In this document: piece by piece, positions 9,304 through 25,824 of the stretch
Layout of the letters: every line of letters starts with the position of its first letter
How positions within the stretch are numbered: position 1 is the stretch's first letter
NCBI GenBank assembly: GCA_003155495.1
Contig: PMDB01000094.1
Span: forward strand, 1-43,152
Direction: 5' to 3'
DNA length: 43,152 nucleotides
Source of the DNA: Ignavibacteriota bacterium
Lineage (GTDB): Bacteria; Bacteroidota; Ignavibacteria; UBA10030
The notes under the pieces: model-generated
Databases searched by the model: none
What the model saw: the letters and a program-made list of their open reading frames with translations, nothing else
Told to the model about the DNA's origin: nothing
Made by a program: the position numbers and the translations under genes

Positions 9304-9690
9304 AAAAAAGTTCCTTATGAAGTTCAAAAATGAATGAAATTTATAAAAATGGTTTTTTTCATGTTAGATGTCTATTGTCTAGTCATCTACAAATAGTAAG
9401 ATACGAGAAGATAACCGAAAAGCAATGCTCATGAGACTTTGGCATACCTTAAGTTCCGTCTTACCTATAATCCCTTAAAACCATCCTGGAACGACAGTTC
9501 AAATTCTTGAATTGCTCTTCAAAATCACTTTTTGCATACCTCCATAGCTGTGAAACGGTGTGGCAATAATACAGCAATGAGAAACTGTCATTGTAATTTA
9601 ATGGGAAAGGTTGAAGATAGAATGAACTTCTTTTGGAAAAAACAGTGGCTTTCTTCTATCTTAAAAATATGCGAGAGGAAGCTGGCTCTT
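9304..9690. other. Intergenic stretch without recognisable genes
   Basis: AT-rich sequence upstream of the minus-strand barrel gene; it should hold that gene's promoter, but no convincing box pair stands out. A 63-codon frame at 9532-9723 has no ribosome site, no family resemblance and ends in the repeat described next, so it is not called. Confidence 0.4.
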
Positions 9691-9693
9691 ACT

Positions 9694-9822
9694 ATTCTGG
9701 CAACCGATGTCGCACAGAGTTAGTAGTTCTCAATAAATATTAACCATATGAAGCATGGTATGAAGAAATTGATGTTTATTCTTGCACTTACCATCGCAAT
9801 CAATAGTTTTTTCCTCTCGCGA
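9694..9822 (+). pseudogene. Decayed duplicate of the 5' end of the Lys/Cys-rich exported-protein gene
   Basis: This segment aligns with 12771-12897, the upstream region and signal peptide of the intact gene at 12838. Shared blocks are CAACCGATRTCGCACAGAGT, the AATAA.TAACCA spacer, GTATGAAGAAATTGATGT and TTCTTGCACTT. The copy encodes MKKLMFILALTIAINS, close to MKKLMCVLALVIVIVTS of the intact gene, then loses similarity and runs into unrelated sequence. The AAAGGAG ribosome site of the intact gene is replaced by ATATGAAGC here. It is a 5' remnant, not a working gene. Confidence 0.7.
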
Positions 9823-9823
9823 A

Positions 9824-9966
9824 GTGCGGGGTCAGTATTGCATTGGCTGCGGAGCGTGCGAATATTTCTGTCTGACGCTTCCGTACAAATCGATCTATGT
9901 CGATGGAAACGTCGAAAGAAGGGAAACTCGAGCAAAAGATCGATACAGAGAACGACTTCCCGTTTT
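9824..9966 (+). pseudogene. Fragment of a 4Fe-4S ferredoxin-type gene
   Basis: In the frame of the codons starting at 9833 the translation reads QYCIGCGACEYFCLTLPYK followed by SIYVDGN, a single 4Fe-4S ligand set CxxCxxCxxxC with the usual following Pro replaced by Leu, and a PYKSIYVDGN tail typical of ferredoxin-like domains in periplasmic or membrane redox proteins. There is no start, no second cluster and no upstream domain. The stop comes soon after. It is fused to the signal-peptide remnant only by a junction in another frame, so both are relics. Confidence 0.6.
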
Positions 9967-10186
9967 AATTTAGGTCATGGGATTTAAAATCCGCTCCTCC
10001 CTTGTGGTTTTTTACACATCCTCAACCGCCGAGATTACCCTCACGTCGCTCCGATGAGCGGACAGCTCCAATCCTTTTTTCATTTCATTTGCATTTGGAA
10101 AAAAATCCCGTAAATTTAATTGAGCTACCTTTTTGCATCTATTAAGGATTCATCTACTTATTGTTAGCCCGTTAGAAGAAATTCCC

Positions 10187-10333
10187 ATGAGTAATCGGTC
10201 AAAAAATATTGAACGATGGAAATTAGTAATCACATCAATAATTATTGCCGTTGGATTGGGAGCCGTTGGTTGGCTTTCACAAGGCAGAGATAGTTACAAT
10301 CGTCAAAATATTTATTGCACTTATAACCAATAA
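10187..10333 (+). CDS. Possible small membrane peptide upstream of the acyltransferase gene
   Basis: 48 codons from ATG 10187: a basic N-terminus (MSNRSKNIERWK), one hydrophobic helix (LVITSIIIAVGLGAVGWL) and a polar tail ending CTYNQ. It ends 17 bp before the MBOAT gene and shares its AT-rich composition. No strong ribosome site is visible and I recognise no family, so it may be the truncated start of a lost membrane or export gene instead of a working one. Confidence 0.35.
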   Translation: MSNRSKNIERWKLVITSIIIAVGLGAVGWLSQGRDSYNRQNIYCTYNQ

Positions 10334-10350
10334 ACTTATATCGATCAACT

Positions 10351-11781
10351 ATGCTTTTTAATTCGATTCAGTTTGCAATTTTTTTTGTAATTGTAACATT
10401 TATTTATTTTACTATTAATCATCGATACCGTTGGTTTTTGCTCCTAGCAAGTAGTTGTTATTTTTATATGGTTTTTGTACCAGTGTATATATTAATACTC
10501 GGTTTTACAATAATCGTTGATTATTTTGCAGGTATTTATCTTGAAGAAACAGAAGGGAAAAAGAGAAAAGTCTTCCTCGTTGCAAGTCTGATTGCAAATA
10601 TCGGCGTATTAGCTGTTTTTAAATACTATAATTTTTTAAACGGAAATTTATCCGTTTTTCTTAATGACATTGGTTTCCAGAATCCAATTCCATTTTTATC
10701 AATAATTCTGCCAATCGGACTTTCCTTCCATACATTTCAAGCGATGGCATATACAATAGAGGTGTACCGGGGTCACCAAAAAGCTGAAAGACACTTTGGC
10801 ATTTATGCGCTTTATGTAATGTTTTATCCTCAATTGGTAGCGGGGCCAATCGAACGTCCGCAAAATTTAATACATCAGTTTTATGAAAAACATATATTTG
10901 AGTATTCCAGAATTATTGAAGGTCTACAATTAATGCTTTGGGGACTATTTAAAAAAATAGTCATTGCTGACAGATTAGCAATTTATGTAAATGCTATCTA
11001 TAATAATTCGGAACATCACAATGGAATGACTCTCTTAGTAGCAACAATATTTTTCGCATTTCAAATATATTGTGACTTTTCAGGATACTCCGATATTGCG
11101 ATCGGGGCGGCAAAAGTTATGGGCTTTAAATTAATGATTAACTTTAATCGTCCTTATTTTTCAAGTAGTATTTCTGAGTTCTGGAAACGTTGGCATATTT
11201 CCTTGTCGAGTTGGTTTAAGGACTATTTCTACATTAGTCTCGGTGGAAATCGAGTCTCCGTTCCTCGATGGTATTTCAATTTATTCTTCGTGTTCCTCAT
11301 TAGTGGTTTGTGGCATGGAGCAAATTGGACTTTTATTATTTGGGGTGCTCTTAATGGTTTCTATTTAGTTTTTGCAATCATAACACAAGGTCTTAGGGAT
11401 AAATTTGATGTACTAACTGGTTTAGATAGATTTCCAAGAATTAATCATACAATACAAATACTTACCACATTTTGCTTGGCATGCTTTGCGTGGATTTTTT
11501 TCAGAGCAAATAATGTTACGGATGCTTTCAATATTATAGAAAAGATCTTCAGTTTCAGTGGTTCTATTTATTGGATGGATCCTTACTCTATAGCATATTC
11601 TTTTTTCGGCATAGTATTCCTTATCATCGTTGATTCAAAAAAGGAATATTATCGAGGAAGTTTTTCCTTTTTCAATAACAAAAATTGGATCGTTCGCAAC
11701 CTTTCTTATGCCATGCTAATAATTCTTATTGTGTTGGTTGGCGTATTAGATGGTGGGCAATTTATTTATTTTCAATTCTAA
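10351..11781 (+). CDS. MBOAT family O-acyltransferase (AlgI/DltB-like)
   Basis: 476 residues, multi-pass membrane protein with about ten helices. Hallmarks of the AlgI branch are present: MLFNSIQFAIFF at the N-terminus, PIGLSFHTFQAMAYTIEVYRG, YPQLVAGPIERP, QIYCDFSGYSDIAIG, the RPYFSSSISEFWKRWHISLS block, and the catalytic histidine H322 in SGLWHGANWTF. Such enzymes move acyl groups (often acetyl) across or onto extracellular glycans, with a partner SGNH-type protein; the next gene is one. The substrate is unknown: no polysaccharide synthesis genes are adjacent. The gene is clearly more AT-rich than the flanking housekeeping genes, suggesting transfer. ATG 10351 gives the standard family N-terminus. 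Confidence 0.92.
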   Translation: MLFNSIQFAIFFVIVTFIYFTINHRYRWFLLLASSCYFYMVFVPVYILILGFTIIVDYFAGIYLEETEGKKRKVFLVASLIANIGVLAVFKYYNFLNGNLSVFLNDIGFQNPIPFLSIILPIGLSFHTFQAMAYTIEVYRGHQKAERHFGIYALYVMFYPQLVAGPIERPQNLIHQFYEKHIFEYSRIIEGLQLMLWGLFKKIVIADRLAIYVNAIYNNSEHHNGMTLLVATIFFAFQIYCDFSGYSDIAIGAAKVMGFKLMINFNRPYFSSSISEFWKRWHISLSSWFKDYFYISLGGNRVSVPRWYFNLFFVFLISGLWHGANWTFIIWGALNGFYLVFAIITQGLRDKFDVLTGLDRFPRINHTIQILTTFCLACFAWIFFRANNVTDAFNIIEKIFSFSGSIYWMDPYSIAYSFFGIVFLIIVDSKKEYYRGSFSFFNNKNWIVRNLSYAMLIILIVLVGVLDGGQFIYFQF

Positions 11782-11794
11782 ATAAATCGTGGTC

Positions 11795-12769
11795 ATGGAA
11801 AAAGCATTAATTAATAGAATAAACGAAAACGGCTATAAAAAGTTAGCAATGAAGGTATTCGTATTTGTCATCATTATTGCCTCCTTTGATTTTACGATTG
11901 GCAGGGTACTCAATTATTTCTATTTCACACAAGGATCTGGAACGCAGTATCGAACTACGTATTCGCTTGAAAAGTCAACCGCCGAAATATTGGTTTTTGG
12001 TTCTTCGCGTGCAAATCACCACTACGTTTCTGAAATATTTGAAAAACGCTCGAATTTAACCTGTTATAATGCAGGCAGAGACGGTAATTCTATATTTTAC
12101 CATTACGCAATTCTTAAAGGTGTATTGAAAAGATATTCACCTAAAATTGTGATATTAGATTTTTCGACACACGAATTTGTAAAAAATCAAGATAGCTATG
12201 ACAGAATATCTTCTCTCTTACCATACTATAGAAAGCATCCGGAAATTCGCTCGATTGTAGAACTTAGAGGCCCGTTCGAGAAATTTAAAATGATTTCAAA
12301 CATATACCCATTCAATTCATCAATCCTCTCAATTGCTATTCATAACAACGCAGAGTATAATAACACACAAAGAGAGGATATTAAGGGCTATATGCCGTTG
12401 ACGAAAATCTGGAATGAACCAATTAAGACTGATAGTAATTTTGTACAATATGAACTCGATAGTGTTAAAGTCAAAGCCTATGACTCATTTATAAACGGTT
12501 GTATTAATTCAAGAGTTAAACTATATATTGTCTGCTCTCCATCATTTATTAAATATACATACAAAGAATATTCAGTTACTATTGGGCAAGAAATTGCTGA
12601 AAGGAACAATATAAAATTTTACGATTTCTCCAACGATTCAAATTTCATAAATAATTCCTCGCTATTTCAAGATGTTGGACATTTGAACAATGAAGGTGCC
12701 ACACTATTCTCAAATAGATTAATTGACAAAATAAGCGAAACGGAAAAGAATATTGAACTTGTTCATTAA
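11795..12769 (+). CDS. Membrane-anchored SGNH-hydrolase-like protein, partner of the MBOAT enzyme
   Basis: About 324 residues from ATG 11795 (a GTG at 11789 is the alternative; neither has a clear ribosome site). An N-terminal membrane helix (KVFVFVIIIASFDFTIG) is followed by a soluble domain outside the membrane. The SGNH block I serine lies in LVFGSSRANHH (GSSR at about 69-72), an Asn/Gly-containing CYNAGRDGNS matches block II, and the catalytic Asp-His pair lies in FQDVGHLNNEGATLFS near the C-terminus. It starts 14 bp after the MBOAT stop. In AlgI/AlgJ/AlgX- and PatA/PatB-like systems an SGNH protein passes the acyl group from the MBOAT channel to the glycan; that role is the natural inference here. 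AT-rich like its partner. Confidence 0.8.
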   Translation: MEKALINRINENGYKKLAMKVFVFVIIIASFDFTIGRVLNYFYFTQGSGTQYRTTYSLEKSTAEILVFGSSRANHHYVSEIFEKRSNLTCYNAGRDGNSIFYHYAILKGVLKRYSPKIVILDFSTHEFVKNQDSYDRISSLLPYYRKHPEIRSIVELRGPFEKFKMISNIYPFNSSILSIAIHNNAEYNNTQREDIKGYMPLTKIWNEPIKTDSNFVQYELDSVKVKAYDSFINGCINSRVKLYIVCSPSFIKYTYKEYSVTIGQEIAERNNIKFYDFSNDSNFINNSSLFQDVGHLNNEGATLFSNRLIDKISETEKNIELVH

Positions 12770-12837
12770 ATATTCCGACAACCGATATCGCACAGAGTTA
12801 GGTGCCCTCATTAAATAATAACCAAAAGGAGTGTTGT

Positions 12838-18570: not shown

Positions 18571-18678
18571 AAATATGAGAACACGCTCCCCGTCATTGCG
18601 AGGATCCCGAACGACGAAGTTGATCGGGAGACGAAGCAATCTGCAAATCTATTCGCCGCTTTCTTTGAAAGCGCAAAG
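18571..18678 (+). repeat. 107-bp dispersed repeat, copy 1
   Basis: Matches 19452-19558 in direct orientation with few differences: AATATGAGAA, CCCGTCATTGCGAGGATC, GAACGACGAAGT, GATCGGGAGACGAAGCAATC, TGCAAAT and CGCTTTCTTTGA.AGCGCAAAG are shared. No coding potential. This style of repeat is seen as scattered intergenic elements in some bacterial genomes. Confidence 0.85.
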
Positions 18679-18692
18679 TGACCCCACCGTCT

Positions 18693-18740
18693 CGAAGAAT
18701 TATCATTCTTCGGGACACCTCCCCTCGAAATGAGGGGAGG
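18693..18740. repeat. Two adjacent perfect palindromes
   Basis: CGAAGAAT-TATC-ATTCTTCG (18693-18712) and CCTCCCCTC-GAAAT-GAGGGGAGG (18718-18740). The second has a 9-bp GC-rich stem. Neither is followed by a T tract in either direction, so they are more like REP-type elements than terminators. Confidence 0.75.
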
Positions 18741-18860
18741 ACTAACAGAAAGATGGATAGATAGAAGGATGAATAGAATCTTGCTAATGCAAGATACAGT
18801 TACAGGCCTCCGGCTGAAATCGAAAAATGTCATTCCCGGGGGTTTTAAAGCACGCCACGT

Positions 18861-19283
18861 TCACATTTCATCTGATTTGAGAATAGGTTTTCCGGCAAGA
18901 TATTTTTTCCATGGTTCCCAGTAGAACTCATGCCATCCTTTATCAATTCCCTTGGCTTGTTCGTCTGGTACGTTTGCATGCACAGCCTGTAACACGACAT
19001 CATTTCCCTTCGGCTTGAGAGCGATGATGAATGTTGAGTCAAGATCGTCTTTATTCCAATCCTGCGCCCGCCATGTCTGCACGATAAGCTTATTCTTCAA
19101 AAGTTGAAGATTCTTGCCGGTGATGTATCCGTTGTGTGCTGAAAATGAGCCGCCTACCTTGCCGGAAATCTTCGCCGGAGAACCTGTCGCTGCTGAATGC
19201 TTTTTGGCATCCATATAAAGATCATACAGAGCTTTCGGCGTAGTATTTTTAAATACGACCTCTTGAACGATGGTTTTAGACAT
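18861..19283 (-). CDS. SRPBCC / AHSA1-like domain protein
   Basis: 140 residues from ATG 19283, chosen because AAGGAG lies 6-11 nt upstream; the frame extends to 19352 without a second good start. It begins VQEVVFKNTTPKALYDLYMD, the usual first strand and helix of the START/Bet v 1-like fold, continues with GGSFSAHNGYITGKNLQL and VQTWRAQDW strands, and ends with the long helix containing GWHEFYWEPWKKYL. This is the activator-of-Hsp90-ATPase-like SRPBCC subgroup, small cytosolic proteins that bind hydrophobic ligands; the ligand is unknown. It is a lone minus-strand gene between repeat clusters, suggesting an accessory region. Confidence 0.82.
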   Translation of the reverse strand: MSKTIVQEVVFKNTTPKALYDLYMDAKKHSAATGSPAKISGKVGGSFSAHNGYITGKNLQLLKNKLIVQTWRAQDWNKDDLDSTFIIALKPKGNDVVLQAVHANVPDEQAKGIDKGWHEFYWEPWKKYLAGKPILKSDEM

Positions 19284-19369
19284 GAGTATCTCCTTATAAA
19301 AATAGATTGATGATTTATACTGTAACAATGCATATACTTCTTTTTGTTCCATTCTGGTCGGAATTGCTT

Positions 19370-19420
19370 ACCGGGCGAAGTGATTTACCCGACATGCTCT
19401 TTGGCGGGCTTCGCCCCTAC
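19370..19420 (+). repeat. 51-bp repeat with terminal inverted repeat, copy 1
   Basis: Identical to 20664-20714 except at two positions. GGGCGAAG near the left end pairs with CTTCGCCC near the right end, so each copy can fold into a hairpin with ACCCGACATGCTCTTTGG in the loop. Confidence 0.9.
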
Positions 19421-19451
19421 GTATTTTTTTCTCCAATGGGTTCAATAGCGA

Positions 19452-19558
19452 GAATATGAGAAAGCTTCCCGTCATTGCGAGGATCTCGAACGACGAAGTC
19501 GATCGGGAGACGAAGCAATCTGCAAATTCTATTTGTCGCTTTCTTTGATAGCGCAAAG
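19452..19558 (+). repeat. 107-bp dispersed repeat, copy 2
   Basis: Direct repeat of 18571-18678. After the shared GCGCAAAG it continues AAAGCGACAGAAAG, so GTCGCTTTCTTTG and CAAAGAAAGCGAC form an additional inverted repeat at the right end (19535-19566). Confidence 0.85.
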
Positions 19559-19999
19559 AAAGCGACAGAAAGAAACGCTTGCGAAATCGAAAATGTAATC
19601 TCAAGGGGGAATGAGTATTACGGATGTGATGAGATTCTCGTATAAGATTAAGATTGGAAATTGAATATAAATTACCTTGTCTTGGCCTGGTTCACAGCTG
19701 TCGATTTCGCGGACTTGGAGAGAAGATCAAAAATCAGACTCCCATTCGCCCCTGCAATGACTCACAGACTCTGCGCCGGCTTGTCCGCCATTTTTTGAGC
19801 GGAAGGCGCATCCGCTTTTGTGGAAAATGCTCTTTACTCTTCATCGTTTGCTGTTTTCTCTTCATTCTTTACTTTTCACTGTTTACTATTTACAGTTTAC
19901 CGCTTATTGCTTCTCATTCCAAAACTCGCTACACTTTCATACAATCAAAAAAAATAAATGCAAGACGACTTCACGATAAAATATTGAAGCGAGGGTACT

Positions 20000-20548
20000 A
20001 TGGAAAGAAAAGAATTTTTAAAAAGCGCATGCACATTTGGAGCCTGCGGATGCATTGGAATGAACTTCTTAACCGGCAGTATGGCAGCGGCTCATTCGGA
20101 AAGTACTCAAGGCGACGACAAACCGGATTGGCGAATTGATTTCATGCAAAGTCGTTACAAAAATCTGCTGTATATTCTGAACGACACGCTGGATAAAGAT
20201 ACGTTCATTGCCGTATTAAAAAAACTTGGAGCCAAATGCGGTGATGATTTTGCAAATAAATATAAAAACAATCCCGAAGGTTTCTTTAATTTCATCAAGA
20301 GTCTCTGGGCCGATACCGTCGAGTATGATAAGGAAAAAGGGATAATTCGGGTGAATGAAAAAATACGGAAAACCTGTAATTGTCCATTTATAAGAGAAAA
20401 AGAAGCTCCCGAAATTTTATGCAATTGTTCGTTAGGCACTCAAAAGAGAATATACGAAAGTTTATTCGACAGGAAAGTCAATGTAACACTCGAAAAGTCG
20501 GTTCTCAGAGGCGATGAAAGATGTAGTTTTACGATTCAATTATTATAA
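20000..20548 (+). CDS. Exported Cys-rich protein resembling V4R / ATC-hydrolase-like domains
   Basis: 182 residues. N-terminus MERKEFLKSACTFGACGCIGMNFL is basic then Cys/Gly-rich and hydrophobic, ending near SMAAAHS: an export signal, possibly with a lipobox-like Cys, resembling Tat-type leaders of redox proteins without the twin arginine. The remainder is helical (WRIDFMQSRYKNLLYIL, TFIAVLKKLGAKCGDDFA) followed by CNCPFI, LCNCSLGTQKRIYESLFDR and a final strand VLRGDERCSFTIQL. That ending, with GDxxCxF, resembles V4R and amino-thiazoline-carboxylate-hydrolase-like small-molecule domains. Cysteines at about 72, 121, 123, 135 and 137 could bind metal or a ligand. I do not recognise a named family with certainty. 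Weak ribosome site. Confidence 0.6.
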   Translation: MERKEFLKSACTFGACGCIGMNFLTGSMAAAHSESTQGDDKPDWRIDFMQSRYKNLLYILNDTLDKDTFIAVLKKLGAKCGDDFANKYKNNPEGFFNFIKSLWADTVEYDKEKGIIRVNEKIRKTCNCPFIREKEAPEILCNCSLGTQKRIYESLFDRKVNVTLEKSVLRGDERCSFTIQLL

Positions 20549-21100
20549 TAATTATAAAGAGAGCTTACATCACTGCCCAGATACATGCAAAAAAATAATT
20601 CATTGCGATTGAGCAATGCCTCATACGCCATATGGGTTTCAGAGGGTTTCGGCGATTAATTCTACCGGGCGAAGTAATTTACCCGACATGCTCTTTGGTG
20701 GGCTTCGCCCCTACAATAACTCTTCACTATTTACTCTTCACTCTTTACTGTTTCCTCTTCACCGTTCACTCTTCACTATTCACCGCTTCTCCTCCTCAAC
20801 TACGCACTAACTAACTACGAACTAGTAAACTAGTTTAACTTGCTTCTCCTCATCTCATATACTCAACGACTCATAGACTCATAAACTCACAGACTCATCT
20901 GCTCATAGGCTTAAAGGCTTCCTTGCTTCTCTACCCAAAACTCACTACCATTTTTACAGTGGTTCCCAATCCTACTATTTTGGGGATTCTTTTCATCGCG
21001 CTTTGGGGGGACTGCAAAAGTTTTTACGCATACATAAAATCCAATAAACTCATAACAGAGAACTATGCATGGATTGTTTACACTTTGAGAAGTGATAAAA
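20549..21100. repeat. Repeat-rich region upstream of the STAND gene
   Basis: No gene is called. It contains copy 2 of the 51-bp repeat (20664-20714), a pyrimidine-rich tract of TTCACTNTTTACTCTTCAC-like units (about 20717-20795), AACTAG-TAAA-CTAGTT (about 20821-20836), a degenerate tandem of ACTCATAGACTCATAAACTC type (20860-20912), and TTGCTTCTC...CCAAAACTCACTAC (20923-20948), which matches 19907-19932. Frames that cross it are low-complexity peptides. Confidence 0.75.
20664..20714 (+). repeat. 51-bp repeat with terminal inverted repeat, copy 2
   Basis: 49 of 51 positions identical to 19370-19420, same orientation; the same GGGCGAAG/CTTCGCCC pairing. Confidence 0.9.
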
Positions 21101-24100
21101 ATGAGTAGACTTCAAGCAGTTGAAAATGCACTGATATCTATCAACGATGCTGTTTTTCAAGAACTGTGTGATAGCTTTCTTGCCATTCGTAACAGGAATT
21201 ATTCTACATTTTCAAGGATCGGAAGTAAAAGCGGCAAACAAAAAACAATAAAAGGAACACCAGATACATTTCTATTACTACCAAATGGAAATTACATTTT
21301 CGTTGAATATTCTACCAATATAACCGCTGGATTATCAAAACTTACAGATGATATAAAGAAGTGCATTGATACTTCTAAAAGCGGAATACCATTAGATCAA
21401 ATTGCTGAAATAATTATTTGTGTCAACTTTAGTCTTAGCGTAGATGAAGTTCAATCACTAAGAATCCTTTTAGACAATACTCATATTGCATTGACAATTT
21501 ATACTCTTGATTCGTTAGCAATAGAGCTACATTTGAATCATAGAGACCTAACCAATCAATACTTAGGCTTGACATTAGATACTGGTCAGATTGTTTCCAT
21601 TGAAAGATTTATCGAAGAATATAATAAAGCCTCCAAAGGAATTTCTACTCCCTTGGACAATACCTTTTTACACAGAGAACCAGAATTAAAAGAGCTCAAA
21701 GAATCAATTCACCAATACGATTTTATAATAATCACAGGCGCACCGGGAATCGGAAAAACCAAGTTATCACTCGAGGCAATAAAGAGCTTTCTAAAAGATA
21801 ATCTGTCTTTTACCGCATATTGTGTTTCATATAAAAACCACACCCTACTTTATGATTTATATCAATACTTTGATGTGGAAAAAGATTATCTGTTATTCGT
21901 TGATGATGCTAATCGCATAGATGCATTTAATCAAATCACAGGTTTCTATAAGTCAACTAGAAAAGGGAAGTTAAAAATTATAATCACTGTTAGAGATTAT
22001 GCATTTCAAGAGGTTGGTGTTCTATGTCAAGAATTCTCGCCCAAAAGGATTAACCTAACAAAGTTTTCAGATGAGCAAATTATTGACATTATTAAAGCGG
22101 ATCCTTTTCAAATTCTCAACCACAAGTATCAGAAAGAAATTGTTCGTATTGCGGATGGAAATCCAAGACTAGCCATTATGACTGCTTTGTTAGCAAAGGC
22201 AGAACAGAATATTTATGCATTATCTGATGTGTCTGACCTTTTTGAAAAGTATTTTTCAACTTTTATTAAAGATGACGGGGAATTTGCAAATAATTTTAAC
22301 ATTAAATGCCTTGGGTTAATCGCTTTCTTTTATACCATTCCATACAAGAATAAAGAAATAACGACTTCTATACTTGATAACTTTGGGATTAAATATCCTG
22401 AGTTCATAGATGCAATTGATAGGCTGGAAAAATTGGAATTAGTAGATATTCAATTTGAACATGTAAAATTTCCAGAGCAAAACCTCTCTACATATTTCTT
22501 TTACAAAGCATTCATTAAAGACAATTTGCTTTCTTTCGAAATTCTTCTACAAAAATATTTTGATAATAATAGCAATCAATTCAAAGACTGCGTAATTCCA
22601 GCTAATAACACATTCGGATCGCAAAATGTGATGGACAGATTGAAGCCTGAATTGCAGAAATATTGGAATACAATTAAAGGAGATGAAGAAAGAGCTTTTA
22701 AGTTTCTGAATACATTTTGGTACTACCTACAAGCAGAAACTCTAGAGTTTGTTTTCAATAAAGTTGAGGCATTGCTAACAGTTAGTGTCTCAAGATATGA
22801 AGTAACATACGAAAACAATGCTTTTTCATCCGAACAAGATAAAATAATTGAGCTTTTAGGAAAGTTCTTTGGATTCCACAAAAATCTGAAGGATGTTATA
22901 GAATTGGCTTTTGAATATACTCGAAAAAGTCCCGCTCAACTACCAGAATTGATTCACAAAATAAGAGAACAATTGACTTTCGACGAAGATGATCCGATGT
23001 ATCGATTTATAAGACAAACAATATTGTATGAAATCTTGTTGAATGGATTGAAGAAAAAAGACCTTCTTTTTTCAACAGTATTTTTTGAGTTGTCTAAGAC
23101 TTTCTTATCCTTCAAGTTTCATCATACAAAGGGTGGGAGAAATCTTTCATTTTACTGGTATGATTATCCGATTCCCAATACTAAACCTATACAAGAATTT
23201 AGAAAAAACATATGGAATGCTTTAGAATCTAATTATGATCAGTATCCAAATGAATCTTTCAATTTATTGCAGAGTTATGCGAGTACAAGTCCTTATGTAA
23301 TCAAAGAAGTCATGGAATTTGATATACCGTTCCTTCTGGAAATTATTGAGAAACATCTAAACAATGAATCATTTGAACATTGCAAGTACGTTCAAGACCA
23401 AATTAGATGGTGTAAAAGACACTCTGTTTCCCTTCCTAGTTTTTCATCTTTGTCTCATAAGTTTACCAATAAAACATATGAAACATTCCTAAGGATTGAT
23501 TGGGATAGATTAAGAGACAAGGAAATGTTTGAATTTGATGATTTCAGGGAATATGAAAAATTAAAAGAAGCTGAAATTAGAACATCATTCATTTTCAATT
23601 CGTTATCAGAAGTAGAATCATTTTACAAGGTGTTTGTTTATCTAAAAAAAATGGCAAAAAATGACTGGAATTATCTTACAACTATTGAACATGTCATCGA
23701 TGAGAACTGTTTTAAAAATTTCGCATTAGGATGTAATATTCTAATGCTAATCATTGAAAACGGAAATGAAATCAATTATATACCAAGATCCGTTTTCCGT
23801 AATCATCTGAGAACAGAAGAAAATGCTAAAGCCATTTGGGCTGTAATTCAAGAAAAAGAATTCATAAATAGAAACATTTGGGAGCTTTCATTTTACGATA
23901 ACTTAGACGATAATTTAATTAACAAAAAGTATGCGGAACTAATATTAAATACAGTGAGTAAAATTCATGAATCAACCACAATTCATTTTGATAGACTCGA
24001 AAGATACTTGGTAATTGAATCAAGTCTGTTTCATAATATCCTAAAAATAATAGTTGAGAAGAACGAGAATGAAGGAATCCATTTGCAGTTATGGATGGAC

Positions 24101-24826
24101 TTCTTTAGCCTTCATTTCGAAAAACTAGGTGATGATATTGAACTTATCGAAAAAGCATATCTACAACAAGAAAAAATTCATTCGCATTTTGATTTTGAAG
24201 ATAAAGGATTCTTAAATATTCTAAAGAAGGACTCTAAATTTTTGATTGAATATGTTGGTAGTCTTTATTCTGAAAACATACATGGGCTTTCCGGTGACTA
24301 CAAGAATTTGGGGTTTGTTTGGCAGATAGAAAACATTGAACCTGTATTAGTAAAAGTCTTTGATTTGGTTATTGAGAAAGAACCCTACTTTGGTATTCTG
24401 GGCCACTTCTGTAATTCATTCTTTAGAAATATACAAGATGACTTAAAGAAGAAATCAAGTAAGTTCCTTATTGAATATTGCACGGCAAATCATAATAATC
24501 ACAACAAAATAAATATTGTTGTTGATATAGTGCGACATACAATGAGAGAGTTATTTGAAGAAGTTCTGTTGCTTTTCTTATCATTAAATCAAGATGTCGA
24601 TGTGTTTTCTCGGATTTATTGGAGAGGTAACGGAGGAAGCGGTTCGGGTAATGTGAATTTAGGGGATATTGAAGCAGCTGACTGGAGAAACATTTTATCT
24701 ATTGTTGAAAAATCTACTATAGGTATAAAATTAATACCAATAAAAAAATATATAAATGAAAAAATTGAACATTCCTTAAGATACGCTGATTGGGAAAGAC
24801 AGAGAAGGTTTTTAGAGAGATATTAG
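21101..24826 (+). CDS. STAND P-loop NTPase with nuclease-like N-terminus, putative antiphage sensor
   Basis: 1241 residues from ATG 21101 (GTG 21092 would add three). Residues about 15-160 hold a PD-(D/E)XK-like fold: GTPDTFLLLPNGNYIFVEYST gives the Asp of GTPD and a Glu in FVEYS, where the canonical ExK lysine is absent; I recall VEYTT/VEYST as usual in this family. A STAND ATPase follows: Walker A GAPGIGKT (213-220), Walker B LLFVDDAN (264-271), ITVRD with an arginine (298), then GNPRLAIM and winged-helix-like sequence. The remaining 800 residues are helical repeat-like, the expected sensor region. Such nuclease-STAND proteins (Avs and relatives) recognise phage proteins and cleave DNA or kill the cell. 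Strongly AT-rich, flanked by repeats, no operon partner: a transferred defence gene by inference. Confidence 0.8.
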   Translation: MSRLQAVENALISINDAVFQELCDSFLAIRNRNYSTFSRIGSKSGKQKTIKGTPDTFLLLPNGNYIFVEYSTNITAGLSKLTDDIKKCIDTSKSGIPLDQIAEIIICVNFSLSVDEVQSLRILLDNTHIALTIYTLDSLAIELHLNHRDLTNQYLGLTLDTGQIVSIERFIEEYNKASKGISTPLDNTFLHREPELKELKESIHQYDFIIITGAPGIGKTKLSLEAIKSFLKDNLSFTAYCVSYKNHTLLYDLYQYFDVEKDYLLFVDDANRIDAFNQITGFYKSTRKGKLKIIITVRDYAFQEVGVLCQEFSPKRINLTKFSDEQIIDIIKADPFQILNHKYQKEIVRIADGNPRLAIMTALLAKAEQNIYALSDVSDLFEKYFSTFIKDDGEFANNFNIKCLGLIAFFYTIPYKNKEITTSILDNFGIKYPEFIDAIDRLEKLELVDIQFEHVKFPEQNLSTYFFYKAFIKDNLLSFEILLQKYFDNNSNQFKDCVIPANNTFGSQNVMDRLKPELQKYWNTIKGDEERAFKFLNTFWYYLQAETLEFVFNKVEALLTVSVSRYEVTYENNAFSSEQDKIIELLGKFFGFHKNLKDVIELAFEYTRKSPAQLPELIHKIREQLTFDEDDPMYRFIRQTILYEILLNGLKKKDLLFSTVFFELSKTFLSFKFHHTKGGRNLSFYWYDYPIPNTKPIQEFRKNIWNALESNYDQYPNESFNLLQSYASTSPYVIKEVMEFDIPFLLEIIEKHLNNESFEHCKYVQDQIRWCKRHSVSLPSFSSLSHKFTNKTYETFLRIDWDRLRDKEMFEFDDFREYEKLKEAEIRTSFIFNSLSEVESFYKVFVYLKKMAKNDWNYLTTIEHVIDENCFKNFALGCNILMLIIENGNEINYIPRSVFRNHLRTEENAKAIWAVIQEKEFINRNIWELSFYDNLDDNLINKKYAELILNTVSKIHESTTIHFDRLERYLVIESSLFHNILKIIVEKNENEGIHLQLWMDFFSLHFEKLGDDIELIEKAYLQQEKIHSHFDFEDKGFLNILKKDSKFLIEYVGSLYSENIHGLSGDYKNLGFVWQIENIEPVLVKVFDLVIEKEPYFGILGHFCNSFFRNIQDDLKKKSSKFLIEYCTANHNNHNKINIVVDIVRHTMRELFEEVLLLFLSLNQDVDVFSRIYWRGNGGSGSGNVNLGDIEAADWRNILSIVEKSTIGIKLIPIKKYINEKIEHSLRYADWERQRRFLERY

Positions 24827-24840
24827 AAAGGGGAATCAAA

Positions 24841-25824
24841 ATGATCGGATTGTCAACTTTAGCTAACACGCATAAAGATGTTGAACAGAATTATATGAAA
24901 TTCTTTTCCCTCGTCATAATATTCTCATTCAGCTCCATCGTCTGTGCACAGCAGAAGCAAGTCTGTTTTTCCATCGATGATCTGCCGGTTGTCAGTTATG
25001 GCATCAACGATACGAGCTTCCAGAAGGACATTACGGCAAAACTCATCGCTTCATTTACACGCAATCATATTCCCACCATCGGCTTTGTGATCGTGAAAAA
25101 ATTGTTTAACGATACGCTAAGAAGTTCATTTCAAGTTTCTTTAATAGAGCAGTGGATCGATTGCGGCTTCGATATAGGGAACCACACATATTCTCATCCG
25201 GATTACAATTCTGTTTCACTGAAGGAATACACAGACGACCTCCTCAAAGGAGAAGTCGTAATCAAAGAGATCCTCGCCCGTAAAGGCAGGCACCTCAAAT
25301 ATTACAGGCATCCTTATCTTCATGTAGGCAGCACGAAACTCAAGGCAGACTCGTTGAGTGATTTTTTAAAGCAGCATGGCTCCACTATAGCGCCGGTCAC
25401 TATCGATACCGACGATTATCTCTTTGCACTGGCGTACAAACGGGCACGCGTAAAAAACGATACGGCGCTTTATAAACGAATCGGGCAGGATTATCTTGCG
25501 TATATGGAAAAGAAAATATTGTTTTATGAATATCAAGCGCAAGCACTCTTTGGCCGAAACATCCGGCAGATCCTGCTGGTCCATGCAAGCTGGCTGAACG
25601 CGGAGTATATGGATTCTCTTGCATTGCTGTACATATCACGGGGATATTCATTTATCAGTATGGAGAAAGCTCTCGAAGACTCAGTGTATCAAACGCCGGT
25701 AACGGTGTACGGCAAATGGGGCATATCGTGGCTCGACCGGTGGGCTCTTTCCTGCGGCAAACAGAGCGAATTCTTCAAAGATGATCCCGACCCGCCGGAA
25801 TATGTTTTGGAACTGACGAAATAG
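24841..25824 (+). CDS. Exported polysaccharide deacetylase (NodB homology domain)
   Basis: 327 residues from ATG 24841, which has a good site (AAAGGGG, 7 nt spacing); ATG 24895 would give 309 residues with a more standard signal peptide (MKFFSLVIIFSFSSIVCAQ) but a poor ribosome site. The NodB domain shows the first acidic motif in FSIDDLP, the metal-binding GNHTYSH motif (H-x3-H, about residues 115-120), a YYRHPY motif, and the C-terminal LLVHASWLNAEYMDSL with its histidine. Family members remove acetyl groups from N-acetylated glycans in the envelope; the substrate is unknown. It begins 14 bp after the STAND gene but has higher GC and an export signal, so a functional link is unlikely. The short distance suggests the STAND gene was inserted upstream of it. 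Confidence 0.85.
   Translation: MIGLSTLANTHKDVEQNYMKFFSLVIIFSFSSIVCAQQKQVCFSIDDLPVVSYGINDTSFQKDITAKLIASFTRNHIPTIGFVIVKKLFNDTLRSSFQVSLIEQWIDCGFDIGNHTYSHPDYNSVSLKEYTDDLLKGEVVIKEILARKGRHLKYYRHPYLHVGSTKLKADSLSDFLKQHGSTIAPVTIDTDDYLFALAYKRARVKNDTALYKRIGQDYLAYMEKKILFYEYQAQALFGRNIRQILLVHASWLNAEYMDSLALLYISRGYSFISMEKALEDSVYQTPVTVYGKWGISWLDRWALSCGKQSEFFKDDPDPPEYVLELTK

Follow-up and report, generated by a model that had tools for sequence, protein, structure and literature searches.

A mobile nuclease-STAND gene from an Ignavibacteriota bacterium encodes a candidate stand-alone antiphage protein

The window, by which we mean the whole stretch of 43,152 nucleotides analysed here (contig PMDB01000094.1 of an Ignavibacteriota bacterium), carries at 21101-24826 on the forward strand a gene for a protein of 1241 amino acids, which very probably is a stand-alone antiphage immune protein working like an Avs protein, as a phage-triggered nuclease. 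It apparently represents an unnamed sister family of nuclease-STAND proteins of a known general type. In the mechanism we propose, the C-terminal alpha-solenoid would bind a phage product and relieve autoinhibition of the nSTAND3 ATPase; ATP-dependent oligomerization would assemble the N-terminal PD-(D/E)XK-type domains, which would then cleave nucleic acid and so kill or arrest the infected cell. The proposal draws on the order and folds of the domains, the conservation of motifs, the horizontal spread and a defence and phage context, all read from sequence or structural models. It would add a mobile family to the nuclease-STAND immune proteins of bacteria, one that combines the ATPase clade of Avs5 and an Avs4-like head with an unusual active-site layout.

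The open reading frame is complete, with an ATG at 21101 and no internal stop codon, and the start is backed by homologues with the same first residue. Full-length homologues share 43-72% identity with the protein. The GC content of the gene is 31.3% (GC3 27%) compared with 42-50% in most flanking genes, repeats lie upstream at 18.6-20.8 kb and no partner gene was found within the window. The first-pass annotation had described a large orphan gene, more AT-rich than its neighbours and sitting among repeats, and was accurate on all three points; every motif that it listed (GTPD, FVEYS, GAPGIGKT, LLFVDDAN and GNPRLA) is present.

The central part of the protein is an nSTAND3 ATPase (residues 189-390, 21665-22270, forward strand), delimited by Pfam and the AlphaFold2 model. 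Pfam matched residues 194-315 to PF20720 with E=8.5e-10 and 39.0 bits, the gathering cutoff being 27.2. The Walker A motif GAPGIGKT (residues 213-220) is encoded at 21737-21760, the Walker B motif LLFVDDAN (residues 264-271) at 21890-21913 and the GNPR of GNPRLA (residues 353-358) at 22157-22168, all on the forward strand. Within these motifs K219, D268, D269, N354 and R356 are invariant in 23/23 homologues. The same Pfam domain has been reported for PaAvs5 (PMC12931631). Like the window protein, Avs5 has a helical-repeat C-terminus, but its effector is a SIR2 domain instead of a restriction-endonuclease-like one.

AlphaFold2 models were built on 11 homologues and therefore rest on a shallow alignment. 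For the N-half (pLDDT 82), Foldseek against the PDB placed Avs4 as the closest solved fold and returned Avs3 and Avs5 among the ten best matches. The Avs4 match spans 505 aligned columns and hence covers both the nuclease domain and the ATPase; the Foldseek TM-scores are low, approximately 0.3, with large rmsd, which we attribute to differing domain orientations. Effector, STAND ATPase and repeat sensor stand in a single chain, which is the AVAST layout and the nuclease-STAND-sensor plan that had been predicted for the gene. Avs4 and Avs3 (PDB 8dgf and 8dgc) likewise combine in one polypeptide an N-terminal nuclease, a central STAND ATPase and a C-terminal sensor that is long and helical. The window protein differs from them in having no sequence match to PADLOC Avs models or PDB chains, in a solenoid unmatched to Avs sensors and in an ExS/ExT site with a helix lysine.

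The N-terminal effector domain (residues 1-165, 21101-21595, forward strand) was modelled with the order helix (16-30), strand (56-59), strand (65-71), helix (77-88), strand (101-108), helix (114-122) and strand (130-134); the region of the first core strand (35-49) has low confidence in the model. This order fits a restriction-endonuclease-like, PD-(D/E)XK core fold and, together with the Avs4 match, bears out the nuclease-like N-terminus of the first-pass annotation. Motif II lies in GTPD (residues 52-55), whose D55 is invariant (23/23), and motif III in FVEYS (residues 67-71), whose E69 is kept in 21/23 homologues. The lysine of the usual ExK is replaced by Ser in the window protein (EYS). 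As the position is Thr or Ser in 22/23 homologues, the loss is, judged by this conservation, a family trait and does not reflect decay of the window copy. The third core strand, which carries the ExS/ExT, is followed immediately by a helix whose K80 and D84 are invariant in all 23.

Such a displacement is documented. In DUF1626 the motif III lysine has migrated to the motif IV helix, leaving a Thr behind, and lysine migration has been proposed for further PD-(D/E)XK families (PMC1913061); cap-snatching RNA endonucleases also use helix lysines (PMC6847833). The window family shares with these proteins the missing motif III lysine and the lysine on the following helix, whereas no significant sequence relation to them was seen and host proteins and context are different. 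The invariant Lys80 (codon 21338-21340, forward strand) fits the migrated-lysine variant, and for this reason the domain is likely to be an active nuclease; its active site most likely consists of D55, E69 and K80, with the lysine shifted from the ExK position to the following helix. The first-pass annotation had correctly stated that the ExK lysine is lacking. Its conclusion that the effector mechanism is open went too far, since the helix lysine is invariant. A more specific and rather unlikely reading is that the effector cleaves RNA, because the ExT/ExS plus helix-lysine layout resembles RNA-cutting PD-D/ExK endonucleases and not Mrr-type DNases. If true, an unrecognized phage product would be sensed and RNA would be destroyed instead of DNA. 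When ten N-terminal domains were scanned on their own against Pfam, no nuclease family was recovered; matches to Mrr_cat (0.09) and to a viral L-protein N-terminus (0.024) in one homologue (L014) were weak and at chance level.

The strongest rival keeps the same switch and makes the N-terminal domain dead or a non-nuclease effector, for example a nucleic-acid-binding domain or a scaffold, with killing by a partner such as a membrane/TIR-like pair. The missing ExK lysine would agree with this, as would the loss of E69 in two homologues, where it is replaced by M (L035) and Q (L033); these two members may be inactive. A candidate partner exists in Arenibacter hampyeongensis and Arcicella rosea. 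There, two small membrane-protein genes lie directly upstream of the STAND gene (L008:8868-10008 and L009:8876-9996, 72-74% identity) and form with it a cassette of three genes. The first encodes a TM protein and the second a TM-coil protein with a weak TIR/nucleoside deoxyribosyltransferase-like domain. Most loci, the window and the Leptospira plasmids included, lack such a pair, however, and a dead domain is at odds with the invariant D55 and K80 and with the retention of E69 in most members. We therefore regard this explanation as unlikely. The claim of a single-gene system holds for the window and for Leptospira, while the cassette indicates that some family members may be multi-gene. As an observation apart, the phage-borne homologue L035 (L035:8001-11726) reads FLMYGT at motif III, without the glutamate, and its nuclease may be inactive. 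The Lewinella homologue is followed downstream, after 88 bp, by a gene for a TM protein with a von Willebrand A-like domain (L003:13910-15496), a possible partner.

The remainder of the protein (residues 491-1241, 22571-24823, forward strand) is the presumed sensor and the least conserved part. AlphaFold2 predicted approximately 45 helices in a long alpha-solenoid (pLDDT 85), in agreement with the long helical C-terminus noted beforehand. By Foldseek, the C-half resembles just generic HEAT-type solenoids with TM-scores of 0.3 or less. No Avs chain appeared among its best 50 matches, in line with the earlier remark that the sensor matches none recognized, and comparison with viral models gave generic repeats alone. 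Among close homologues, the identity of residues 491-1180 is 0.58 compared with 0.71-0.76 for the nuclease and ATPase of the N-half; among distant homologues the values are 0.18 and 0.31-0.34. Divergence of this kind would be expected if the region follows changing phage targets, though relaxed constraint would give the same picture.

In contrast to the architecture, membership in Avs1-5 did not hold by profile. PADLOC returned no Avs1-5 match for the window protein (only mad8, 17 bits), nor did any Avs model match six distant homologues; a search of PDB sequences with the protein and with profiles yielded P-loop noise and nothing useful. With all PADLOC Avs models unmatched we place the protein in a sister family, and filing it as Avs1-5 is unwarranted given the failed profile test and the unmatched sensor. 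The PADLOC profile of PD-Lambda-4_A did not match the window protein either. A profile comparison aligned the nuclease and STAND parts of the two families with 95.7% probability, but their C-termini show no similarity and the PD-Lambda-4_A nuclease motif is of the standard QVK type. Literature searches, with most subscription papers outside reach, found no paper on this STAND family.

Full-length homologues with 60-72% identity were found in Cytophagales, Lewinella, Arenibacter, Mangrovimonas, Mariniphaga and Arcicella, and the full-length layout is common to homologues across Bacteroidota. Two genomes of the same class have homologues at 51-52%, Leptospira plasmids at 43%, and identities of approximately 25% are found more widely. 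Within the class homologues are rare, with 8/391 genomes carrying any. The housekeeping protein TypA of the source genome is 51-52% identical to that of Arenibacter hampyeongensis or Arcicella, compared with 70-71% for the STAND protein, and in a tree the latter clusters with proteins of hosts from several families. A same-family genome (TypA 83%) has just a 26% STAND homologue, and the gene is missing from G001, a genome of the same genus (TypA 98%). The excess of STAND over TypA identity and the absence from the same-genus genome clearly point to horizontal acquisition and recent import. Most of the Leptospira plasmids have in common only the STAND gene with approximately 215 bp upstream and 57 bp downstream, indicating that it moves as a single gene.

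The insertion site could be delimited by blastn of the window against the corresponding locus of G001 (L042). Collinearity of G001 with the window, at approximately 88% DNA identity, extends to 18643 and resumes at 24895. In place of the STAND gene, the interval at L042:12694-14034 (window 18644-24894) encodes a PD-T4-1-like NOV_C protein (E 2e-20) together with a Y1 (REP-type) transposase, and a further genome, G002, has other genes in the matching region. These alternative contents mark the slot as a site of gene turnover and, possibly, a defence hotspot. Short interspersed repeats occupy 18585-20783, with the pairs 18585-18678/19464-19558, 19369-19420/20663-20714 and 19830-19907/20713-20783. 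We rejected the idea of a structured element tied to the STAND gene, as they are dispersed short repeats that match the genome 7 and 14 times. The repeat at 18585-18678 and 19464-19558, which reads CGTCATTGCGAGGA...GACGAAGCAATCTGCAAAT and precedes a short inverted repeat, has 7 genome matches, and one match in the sister genome lies near the Y1 transposase gene; this repeat may be a REP-like element.

The neighbours of homologues were surveyed by identifying phage structural genes by eye from translations and AbiH by Pfam, defence association being a by-eye count. No relatives were found in annotated phages or in a first scan of IMG/VR; profile scans of IMG/VR detected three on phage contigs. 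One lies beside capsid, protease, portal and terminase genes (L020), another beside terminase, portal, protease and capsid genes (L035), and the third lies between lysis and tail genes and AbiH (L034). On the Leptospira plasmid pLiSL2, PD-Lambda-4_A (E 2e-273) adjoins the homologue; further neighbours of homologues are a type I restriction operon, a dGTPase, a DNA methylase paired with an HNH nuclease, and integrases. In this survey, which the first-pass annotation had suggested, other homologues (L002, L003, L009 and L033) stand mostly among housekeeping genes. The phage-borne homologues, the defence-gene neighbours and the clear horizontal transfer support the antiphage role that the annotation had proposed.

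The same plasmids, phage contigs and an integrative element could also be taken to mean that the protein serves maintenance or exclusion by mobile elements (anti-plasmid activity, prophage or plasmid addiction) rather than antiphage defence. We consider this highly unlikely for a single gene with no antitoxin, which also occurs in chromosomes without an obvious element, as in the window, and adjoins antiphage genes. STAND ATPases include regulators too, but a phage-independent role as a host regulator of transcription or stress signalling is extremely improbable here, as Pfam found no DNA-binding domain, the head is nuclease-like, and occurrence is very patchy with horizontal transfer. The phage-triggered nuclease remains our preferred reading. 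The occurrence of the family in phages and plasmids and next to defence genes, and the defence-like gene that takes its place in the sister genome, recommend it as a single-gene candidate in the search for a new phage trigger.

Two further observations concern neighbouring subjects. On a Leptospira plasmid (L017:10001-17675) two different nuclease-STAND proteins, one of the window family and PD-Lambda-4_A, are encoded in tandem. In the window itself, 9309-12826 is a second low-GC (33%) insertion absent from G001, which encodes an MBOAT-like acyltransferase and an SGNH-like partner, both named by eye.
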